A stretch of DNA of 31,924 bases from positions 1 through 31,924 of the IMG/VR virus record IMGVR_UViG_3300028025_000017; one strand, 5' to 3'. The notes beneath the pieces are model-generated. The model saw only the letters and a list, made by a program, of their open reading frames with translations. It had not been told where the DNA came from and did no database searches. Within the stretch, counting starts at the first letter, position 1; every line of letters begins with the position of its first letter. A program made the position numbers and the translations under genes. The stretch comes from a virus. Shown in pieces: positions 147-4,001 of this stretch.

Positions 147-811
147 GTTTCGATTAATTCCCTGTAACGTTCCTGCCTGAATTCGGTGAATTGGTACGGC
201 TTGTTTTTGTACACCCGGAAGCGCAGGTCGTTATCCCATTGCGGCAGCGCATCGTATTCGCGCATCAAAGCTATTTCAAGTGGTGCAGGTTTTTCCCTTT
301 TCACTTCGCGCACCGGTTCTTCTTTGATGCTTAACTTATCTGCTGCCTGTTGCATCGCATCCATGATTTGCGGGTGCTGAAACATTTCGTAGATGTTGTT
401 CTGCTTTTGTTCTTCAGTTCGCATGGCTGTGATATGCGTATCACGTTCCTGTTCAAACTTATTTACCCATTCATTCAATATCGACAAATCTAATCGGTTG
501 TAAATGGTTCCATAGATACCAGCAACACCACGATCTAAACAAAGCTGGATATCTTCAAGGCTATACTTCCAATGATGCTGCACAAAGTGTTCGGCTGCAA
601 AGTTGATTTGGTCAGCATTCATATTCTTGTCGATGTTTATCATTGCACAGCACCGGCTAATGAGCATTGCAATTTTCATCTTTGTTTCATTGCGGTCAAG
701 CTTTCGCAATACTGCAATCTTATTAGCTTTCACGCTCTCTCCGAATGTCAGCTGCGACTTGGGCTGCCACGTTTTGATAGTGTGCAACGTTGTCAAACTT
801 TGATTTTCCAT
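131..811 (-). CDS. Putative replication accessory (helicase-loader-like) protein
   Basis: The protein has 226 residues. The central part (about 45-130) resembles a family in Bacteroidota phages and mobile elements (I recall it as DUF6633-like), with an alpha-helical core containing ADQINFAAE, YSLEDIQLCLDRG and YGTIYNRLDLSILNEW. It directly follows the DUF1376-like replisome organiser, so a role in loading the host helicase or another replication step is an inference from position. The C-terminal third is charged and probably flexible. Starting at 811 gives an 89-nt overlap with the preceding gene; an internal ATG at 679 (MKIAMLISRC) would remove the overlap and keep the conserved-looking core. 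The assignment to replication is tentative. Confidence 0.65.
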   Translation of the reverse strand: MENQSLTTLHTIKTWQPKSQLTFGESVKANKIAVLRKLDRNETKMKIAMLISRCCAMINIDKNMNADQINFAAEHFVQHHWKYSLEDIQLCLDRGVAGIYGTIYNRLDLSILNEWVNKFEQERDTHITAMRTEEQKQNNIYEMFQHPQIMDAMQQAADKLSIKEEPVREVKREKPAPLEIALMREYDALPQWDNDLRFRVYKNKPYQFTEFRQERYRELIETQNEY

Positions 812-1478
812 ATGAATTTGATTTTTGATTTTTTACTTTATCCCATTCTTTGCGCATCCAGTTGCGCACTGTGCTTTGCCAATCCTTCATTGGCACTTTG
901 CCAACTATCCATCCATTGGCTTCATAATGATCCATAAACACACGAGCGAAATTAACTAACTTATCTTCTGCAAGGAAGCTTCCACCTTTCATGTTCAGTT
1001 CGCCCATCAGGTTGTACACTTCATGTTCTTCAGGCTTCACAAACTTTTTCCGCGTTACTTTTTTTTCATTTGCATCTTCAACTATAATTTCATTTATATT
1101 TTCATTTACATTTACTAAAGGCATTGCCGTGGCATATGCCGTAGTAGATGCCGTGGCATCTGTATCACAGTTTTGATTTTTTCTTTTTTTCCATCCATCA
1201 ATAGCACGTGTACGTTGCTTTTCAGCATGTGCTTTGCGCTTACCAACTTCTATTTCAAGACGTTGATTAAAAAAAAGCCCATCTTCATCCTGATGAAACT
1301 TTGCCAATACATCTGCCGTGGCATTGCCGCAGCATAGCCGTATCATCTTTTCGGTAAGTCTACCTTTTTGGTGTTGCAAGCAAAGCAATGTGATGTATTG
1401 CCCACGTTCTTCCATAGTTAAATCTTGCACACCCGCTAAAAAATCGGATGAATAGAAAAGAAATGCTGGGTCTTTCAT
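723..1478 (-). CDS. DUF1376-like replisome organiser (replication initiation protein)
   Basis: The 251-residue protein opens with DPAFLFYSSDFLAGVQDLT and then MEERGQYITLLCLQHQKGRL (about residues 3-40), the signature of the DUF1376/YdaU N-terminal domain found in phage replication-initiation proteins. A low-complexity Ala/Thr stretch (DATASTTAYATAMP, about 107-120) follows, then a C-terminal domain (about 145-225) with WIVGKVPMKDWQSTVRNWMR, similar to the C-terminal module of DnaD-like organisers. It is the first gene after a strong promoter (1584-1613) and a structured 5' leader. Three TGCCGTGGCAT repeats lie inside the gene, recalling the iterons inside lambda O, so it may carry its own origin. 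It probably binds origin DNA and recruits host helicase. A T8 tract (1269-1276) lies in the gene. Confidence 0.75.
   Translation of the reverse strand: MKDPAFLFYSSDFLAGVQDLTMEERGQYITLLCLQHQKGRLTEKMIRLCCGNATADVLAKFHQDEDGLFFNQRLEIEVGKRKAHAEKQRTRAIDGWKKRKNQNCDTDATASTTAYATAMPLVNVNENINEIIVEDANEKKVTRKKFVKPEEHEVYNLMGELNMKGGSFLAEDKLVNFARVFMDHYEANGWIVGKVPMKDWQSTVRNWMRKEWDKVKNQKSNSYGKSKFDNVAHYQNVAAQVAADIRRERES
1125..1324. repeat. Iteron-like repeats TGCCGTGGCAT (three copies), possible replication origin
   Basis: Exact copies of TGCCGTGGCAT lie at 1125-1135, 1149-1159 and 1314-1324, with a partial copy (ATGCCGT) at 1134-1140. All lie inside the replisome-organiser gene. Each copy is nearly self-complementary. 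On the coding strand they encode Ala-Thr-Ala, so a low-complexity protein repeat is an alternative explanation. The lambda O gene is the precedent for iterons inside an initiator gene. Confidence 0.4.
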
Positions 1479-1488
1479 AAACTAAATA

Positions 1489-1579
1489 CCCACCTTCACA
1501 TGCAAAGGCGTACCCTCAGCCGAATGGCTTATGGCAATGCAGTGAAGATGGGATTTAAAATGTTTTTCATAGGGTACGC
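1489..1579 (-). promoter_or_regulatory. Structured 5' leader with interleaved inverted repeats (possible pseudoknot or switch)
   Basis: On the leftward transcript the order is: arm A GCGTACCCT (1579-1571), arm B CCCATCTTCACTGCA (1552-1538), a small hairpin AGCC-ATTC-GGCT (1529-1518), arm A' AGGGTACGC (1516-1508), arm B' (1504-1489). A/A' is a perfect 9-bp pairing. B/B' gives 15 pairs with one bulge and one G-U. The arms interleave (A-B-A'-B'), so the stems either form a pseudoknot or exclude each other. Arm B' contains AAGGTGG, an SD-like sequence about 12 nt before the ATG at 1478. The predicted transcription start (about 1577-1580) falls at arm A. Confidence 0.55.
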
Positions 1580-3772: not shown

Positions 3773-4001
3773 CGCCTTCGTTTTTAATGGTTATGCAATT
3801 GACTATCTCACAGACTGGCAGGTCCATTACCCGGCTAAGGTTAATTAGCTGTCGTAACTTGATGCTGCCAGGATCGTCACACCAATTGTGAAGAGTCTTT
3901 TTCACTATGGGCGTGTTGCTCCTTTGCATCGCACGTAGGAGAGCAGCTTTGCTCCCTACTGTGCGTGCTATTAGTTGGTTTAGTTCCTGTCGCTTTCTCA
4001 T
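3765..4001 (-). CDS. Cro/CI-like helix-turn-helix regulator
   Basis: The 78-residue protein is the size of a lambda Cro-like regulator. Residues about 12-60 contain TVGSKAALLRAMQRSNTPIV, then KKTLHNWCDDPGSIKLRQLI, then LSRVMDLPVCEIV, the pattern of helices of a small helix-turn-helix fold. It lies third in the leftward operon, just after the divergent control region, where early regulators usually sit. The palindromes at 4636-4647 and the shared 19-bp element at 4661-4679 and 28941-28959 are plausible targets, but nothing in the sequence proves which one. It overlaps both neighbours (ATGA upstream). Confidence 0.7.
   Translation of the reverse strand: MRKRQELNQLIARTVGSKAALLRAMQRSNTPIVKKTLHNWCDDPGSIKLRQLINLSRVMDLPVCEIVNCITIKNEGDE

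Follow-up and report, generated by a model that had tools for sequence, protein, structure and literature searches.

A leader of about 100 nt on the minus strand of a tailed-phage genome almost certainly adopts a pseudoknotted RNA structure, in which two stems, P1 and P2, cross each other and are both kept by selection, with a small hairpin, P3, between them. This conclusion is drawn chiefly from an alignment of 50 sequences, IMG/VR phage contigs having yielded at least 91 distinct copies, and the element appears to represent an undescribed RNA family. Regulation of the downstream gene in cis is very probable.

The window, that is, the whole stretch of 31,924 nucleotides that was analysed, is a tailed-phage record of about 32 kb carrying terminase, portal and tape-measure genes. 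The element lies on the minus strand in a 136-nt gap between a ParB-like gene (1615–2355) and a DUF1376-like gene (723–1478, minus strand); its full extent is 1579–1479, reaching the start codon at 1478. The latter gene, the presumed regulated one, encodes a DUF1376-like primosomal protein (replisome organiser): it matches PHROG 9327 'primosomal protein' with E=1e-14 and Pfam DUF1376 with E=3e-6, the Pfam match being below the Pfam cut-off. The gene itself contains short repeats of TGCCGTGGCAT at 1120–1160 and 1312–1340. Another structured leader, matching the Rfam DUF805b RNA (RF02914, 42.8 bits), occupies 2376–2408 on the minus strand; it lies in the short gap that precedes the ParB-like gene, one gene further upstream than the pseudoknot leader.

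From 5' to 3', the locus reads promoter boxes, P1 5' strand, loop L1, P2 5' strand, junction J2/3, P3, P1 3' strand, linker, P2 3' strand, U-tract and ATG, all on the minus strand. The P1 5' strand (arm A, GCGTACCCT, 1571–1579), with the predicted transcript 5' end at 1579, is paired in 100% of 50 aligned sequences and forms a perfect 9-bp helix with the P1 3' strand (arm A', AGGGTACGC, 1508–1516), which sits inside the P2 loop. P2 joins arm B (CCCATCTTCACTGCA, 1538–1552) to arm B' (TGCATGTGAAGGTGGG, 1489–1504), the latter with a conserved bulged U and GGUGGG; in the window its 15 pairs, likewise 100% paired in the 50 sequences, include one G-U. Loop L1 (1553–1570) contains a conserved AUG (1570–1568) and an A-rich tract, of which AAA (1556–1554) is able to pair with UUU 3' of P2, extending P2 by the extension pairs of the alignment. 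J2/3 (1530–1537) is nearly invariant, with UUGCC followed by AUA, and leads into P3 (AGCC-AUUC-GGCU, 1518–1529), which lies between B and A' and has a tetraloop of the form NNYC whose last C is invariant. The linker between P1' and P2' (1505–1507) is CUU in 80 of 82 copies and CAU in the other two, and the U-tract UAUUUAGUUU (1479–1488) fills the space between P2 and the start codon. Most copies also accommodate a small additional helix, AUG/CAU, that joins L1 to J2/3 and can be redrawn as UAAAA/UUUUA in L068; its covariation is too slight for it to be claimed.

All parts of the arrangement given in the preliminary description, interleaved A-B-A'-B' arms with a small hairpin between B and A', are present on the minus strand, and its statement that this is more structure than chance would provide is borne out. 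No other set of interleaved stems on the two strands of the window scored as high in a scan (63.0 against 49.5 for the runner-up), and 20 dinucleotide shuffles of the complete window reached at most 55. Folding of the minus strand gave z = −3.55, and none of 200 shuffled versions was as stable. What decides the matter is the comparison with relatives. Scanning IMG/VR with the downstream protein gave 79 loci, many of them with the element, and a degenerate DNA pattern search of IMG/VR added further copies; a divergent subtype (L228–L232) lies outside the 91 copies first collected. Covariation was measured on a 50-sequence alignment of the pseudoknotted structure, in which 99.9% of cells are paired, against a mean of 83.9% with partners shuffled and 33–52% with partners slid. 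The check proposed at the outset, a search for covariation in related leaders, revealed compensatory changes at 18 of 31 pairs: 7 of 9 in P1 and 7 of 15 in P2, the two stems that cross, and all four in P3. The outcome that would have refuted the structure, related leaders free of such changes, did not occur. Unpaired nucleotides that are conserved in sequence include UUGCC, the linker C, the bulged U and the P3 loop C, and the G-C pair of P1 at the predicted +1 is invariant. Directly after P2, U is invariant at element positions 92, 94, 95 and 96 in 50 of 50 aligned copies (UNUUU).

Two promoter boxes precede the element: a −33 element TTTG (1611–1614), found as TTTGGAA at the same place in nearly all relatives, and a −7 box TATATTTG (1584–1591) lying 4 nt before P1, with TTTG-N4-G conserved in relatives. 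These are the two positions of the Bacteroidota −33/−7 promoter consensus (PMC7366714). The first base of P1 is G in 105 of 105 parsed copies, and wherever upstream sequence is available, P1 follows the end of the TTTG-type box by 4 nt. The TAnnTTTG box of Flavobacterium psychrophilum occupies −12 to −5 relative to the transcription start (PMC9723704); since the box 4 nt upstream of P1 matches this Flavobacterium spacing, the G of P1 is the predicted +1, and P1 would therefore be built from the extreme 5' end of the transcript. The earlier placement of the transcript start at arm A is thus borne out as a prediction, the TATATTTG-N4-G promoter putting the P1 G at +1. From the promoter type and the Bacteroidota-type genes, we infer that the host belongs to the Bacteroidota.

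Genes of more than ten unrelated types follow the element, among them DUF1376-like, DUF6291, N6/N4 methyltransferase, helicase-methyltransferase and GIY-YIG genes and several small unknown ORFs, and the element is therefore a portable promoter-leader cassette. The spacing from P2' to ATG is mostly 9–11 nt despite the unrelated genes, rising to 16–20 nt before some. The original suggestion of a control element for replication-protein synthesis is supported in that a genuine pseudoknot-type RNA leader stands before the primosomal gene. The preliminary description did not notice the exchangeable downstream genes, the invariant U-tract behind P2, the hypervariability of P1 or the unrelated leaders built on a like plan. 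Most near-complete genomes contain one copy; 4 of 24 records had no match to the element and 2 had a second match at the contig end. Two contigs, L090 and L137, carry two copies each, before helicase-methyltransferase and DUF6291 genes, with different P1 sequences. The primosomal protein of L231 is 97% identical to that of L227, yet the element is absent from L231, where another gene lies directly upstream of position 4001; from this comparison, the leader looks exchangeable by recombination. Three phage contigs related to the window (L165, L169 and L177) contain palindromic tandem-repeat arrays with a unit of about 50 nt (TTTCTGTAGAATCCTACAGAAATC...GTTGCTCAA).

Searches of databases returned no described relative. 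Neither the gathering score nor a threshold relaxed to E=10 brought out a credible Rfam 15 match to the element, and the variant leader loci had none either; BLASTN with three versions of the element against 50,697 named phages yielded nothing relevant. A degenerate pattern search of GTDB cellular genomes produced 32 matches, which we attribute to chance because all of them lack P1, P2 and P3. The leader is also absent upstream of the related proteins in cultured or named phages (Riemerella, Porphyromonas, a sewage phage and a faecal contig). No Rfam family or paper describing the element was found in a search that mostly covered literature outside subscription.

The order A-B-A'-B'-T-tract-ATG recurs in other phages, in leaders that precede the same type of gene but are unrelated in sequence (L291, L249/L282, L288/L289, L301/L302, L079, L250, L067 and L068). 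In these, a segment A, usually in a hairpin loop, complements A' in the loop of a GC-rich hairpin that is followed by a T-run and the start codon. At a score of 30, this plan was detected in 36% of 107 DUF1376-type leaders, main family included, against 0.6% of shuffles; with the main family left out, it was detected in 9 of 63 DUF1376-type leaders, as compared with 12 out of 1604 other ORFs. Roughly eight of the 12 look like additional cases, including endonuclease-type leaders in L261, L270, L252, L275, L248 and L284. Between L288 and L289, which represent a second leader type, stem B has been replaced wholesale with pairing kept. The other leader groups may share their mechanism with the family of the window. 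The leaders of L249 and L282 (before a DUF1376-like gene), L291, L301/L302, L079 and L250 are kissing-hairpin leaders, not in Rfam, in which 6–8 nt of the first hairpin's loop complement the loop of the terminator-like hairpin and the T-run directly precedes ATG. In L261, L270, L252, L275, L248 and L284, segment A (TCGCAGC or TGCGG) occurs a third time, between the T-run and ATG, which would give A' a choice of two partners, one upstream and one close to the start.

These observations have led us to favour, as a best guess to which we assign about even weight, a model in which the element is a cis-acting, complete 5' leader of an early-gene transcript and functions as a pseudoknot-controlled attenuator, with P1 forming before P2. 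P2, a GC-rich helix of 15 bp that ends in the conserved U-tract some 10 nt ahead of the start codon, would act as an intrinsic-terminator-like hairpin abutting that codon and would also mask the site of initiation. Arm A, at the transcript's 5' end, would meet A' in the P2 loop before P2 closes, so that P1, a helix of 9–11 bp, would form first; by keeping the P2 loop topologically constrained, P1 would delay or reshape P2 and allow RNA polymerase, and then ribosomes, to proceed. Blocking of P1 by any cause would let P2 close and turn the gene off. When folding was confined to nested structures, the prefix ending at P1' folded with 9 of 9 P1 pairs, and the full element with 11 of 11 P2 pairs, in 82 of 82 copies; in the window, prefix folding changed from P1 to P2 at 14 nt after P1'. 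The 3-nt linker permits the outer end of P1 to stack on the inner end of P2, and the two helices may coexist in one stable fold, or P2 may displace P1. The P1/P2 balance may be tipped by a phage protein, a host factor, a metabolite or another RNA; the downstream gene product is unlikely to be the regulator because the downstream gene is exchangeable. Counted in favour of the attenuator is the UNUUU, since the preference of Bacteroidetes in this part of the start region is for A (at −3, −6 and −11 to −15; PMC7366714). Against it, the P2 loop of about 36 nt is long for a terminator, the U-tract UAUUUAGUUU is interrupted, and several of the other leaders consist of two complete kissing hairpins, in which A/A' pairing need not oppose the terminator. 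A tract with interruptions, at an almost fixed distance from the start codon, would suit translational control as well as transcriptional control.

The main competitor is a translational one, which we consider possible though on the doubtful side: P1, P2 and P3 would form one stable pseudoknot, its 3' edge 10 nt before ATG, that blocks the 30S subunit and is opened or stabilised by a protein or small molecule at the conserved junctions, in the manner of the T4 gene 32 leader, the S15 leader or a translational riboswitch. The conserved unpaired UUGCC, linker C, bulged U and loop C resemble a binding core, the 9–11 nt spacing is mostly maintained before unrelated genes, and structure near the start codon tunes translation in Flavobacterium (F. 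johnsoniae; PMC6847099), yet this scheme needs another reason for the invariant U-tract and for the T-runs in unrelated leaders, and the spacing reaches 16–20 nt before some genes. Another translational role, in which B/B' pairing would hide a Shine-Dalgarno-like AAGGTGG, had been put forward in the preliminary description and is not upheld, as that sequence is replaced elsewhere by AGUGGUGG or GGAGGUGG and only GGUGGG is constant; moreover, Bacteroidia ribosomes do not recognise Shine-Dalgarno sequences (PMC9976891). It is quite improbable that the element serves solely to stabilise the mRNA 5' end, with P1 burying the 5'-triphosphate and the pseudoknot blocking decay without any switching. 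P1 does open with an invariant G-C pair at the predicted +1, and the element is portable between unrelated genes, but the U-tract, the start-codon spacing and the conserved junction nucleotides would be left unexplained, and in other leader types the 5' end lies outside the A/A' helix.

Control by a leader peptide, as in I-complex plasmids and amino-acid attenuators, would have ribosomes on a short ORF open P2 and P3 and expose the gene. A possible leader ORF encoding MKNILNPIFTALP lies at 1529–1570 on the minus strand and is of doubtful function. Its AUG is present in 90 of the 91 copies listed, 9–12 nt (once 16) after the P1 start, with A-rich sequence following; the ORF usually opens MK(N/T)(I/F)xNPxxTALP-stop, and its phase relative to P2 is the same in 81 of the listed copies. 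A different phase in 9 copies yields a peptide that is unrelated or has 4 aa, and one copy has no ATG. Either translation or structure could account for the conserved AUG, which by inspection could also pair with the conserved CAU before P3. The window's ORF lacks an A at −3 and several kissing-type leaders have no such ORF, and we give this possibility little weight. Less credible by far is a self-cleaving ribozyme of the HDV type. The HDV fold has the nested strand order P1-P2-P3-P1'-P2', and the element shares this order and a 5' G on P1. It has, however, neither P4 nor the catalytic J4/2, 17–18 nt between P1 and P2, and only 3 nt joining P1' to P2'; its predicted transcript starts at P1, the would-be cleavage site, leaving no upstream RNA to cleave, and no Rfam match appeared even at E=10. 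A feature acting as DNA, either operator half-sites or an origin cruciform, is very improbable as well. The inverted repeats adjoin a promoter and a replication gene, and DNA structure at an origin had been raised initially, but among 720 P1 cells there are 45 G-U and no other non-standard pair, which favours RNA pairing over operators or a cruciform; furthermore, the element is locked to promoter and start codon and also precedes methyltransferase, helicase and GIY-YIG genes. Antisense RNA control was rejected because an antisense promoter (TAnnTTTG on the other strand, −60 to +250) was absent in 77 of 78 loci.

The element has the compensatory covariation, the 5'-leader position and the promoter of its own that mark a structured cis-regulatory RNA. 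SAM-II, preQ1 and fluoride riboswitches are compact 5'-leader pseudoknots that control a terminator or a start region; the element has no sequence or Rfam match to them, and its genes, for phage replication and DNA modification, share no metabolite. Closer in logic are pT181 and pIP501, countertranscript-driven attenuators of plasmid rep genes (PMC5703833), which also place a terminator-like stem-loop directly before the rep start codon under the governance of upstream leader pairing; P2 and its invariant U-tract, 9–11 nt before ATG, are similarly terminator-like in sequence. In those systems, however, the outcome is set by an antisense RNA, and the pre-emptor's partner is the terminator's 5' arm, whereas here A pairs with A' in the P2 loop, not with B, and the antisense promoter is missing as noted above. 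The repZ leader of ColIb-P9 and the I-complex plasmids is likewise a pseudoknot before a replication protein, also with a recognition sequence that varies and possibly with a short leader ORF, and in IncK a single RNAI nucleotide changes compatibility (PMC10724649). The phage element differs in that no antisense RNA was seen, the leader peptide is not consistently conserved, the fold is different and a U-tract is present. It is similar in logic to both pT181-type attenuators and the ColIb-P9 pseudoknot and lacks defining features of each. The T4 gene 32 leader, a pseudoknot followed by an A/U-rich start region in a phage replication-protein mRNA (PMC3014915), is controlled autogenously through gp32; because the genes downstream of the element vary and are unrelated to one another, such autoregulation does not apply as such and no single gene product would be the common regulator.

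P1 itself is hypervariable, with 16 alleles in 80 copies. Loci L113 and L115 are identical outside P1 and differ at 4 of 18 P1 positions. On a minimum spanning tree of alleles, double transversions make up 14 of 26 changes in P1 versus 3 of 27 in P2, where changes run through G-U. Given that the alleles are non-independent, this pattern is no more than suggestive of diversifying selection. An extension that we regard as unlikely is that P1 is a specificity code, its sequence diversified by selection with pairing kept, and that the leader RNA, or a terminated form of about 100 nt, acts in trans solely on leaders with the same P1. The allele number, the double transversions, pairs of the L113/L115 kind and the different P1 sequences within L090 and L137 were counted in its favour. 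Such a code would be comparable to plasmid inc RNAs, with the difference that it is encoded by the sense leader itself, and if true it would amount to RNA-only incompatibility or superinfection control among related phages.

The family is common in freshwater phages with Bacteroidota-type promoters, and the comparative proof of its pseudoknot is unusually strong. It seems to be one case of a wider plan, reached by unrelated leaders, in which a 5' segment pairs with the loop of a hairpin that resembles a terminator and adjoins the start codon. If the proposed mechanism is true, the element would be a compact, portable regulator in a phylum whose ribosomes ignore Shine-Dalgarno sequences and in which post-transcriptional control is little known, and the hypervariable P1 makes RNA-coded specificity between phages directly testable.
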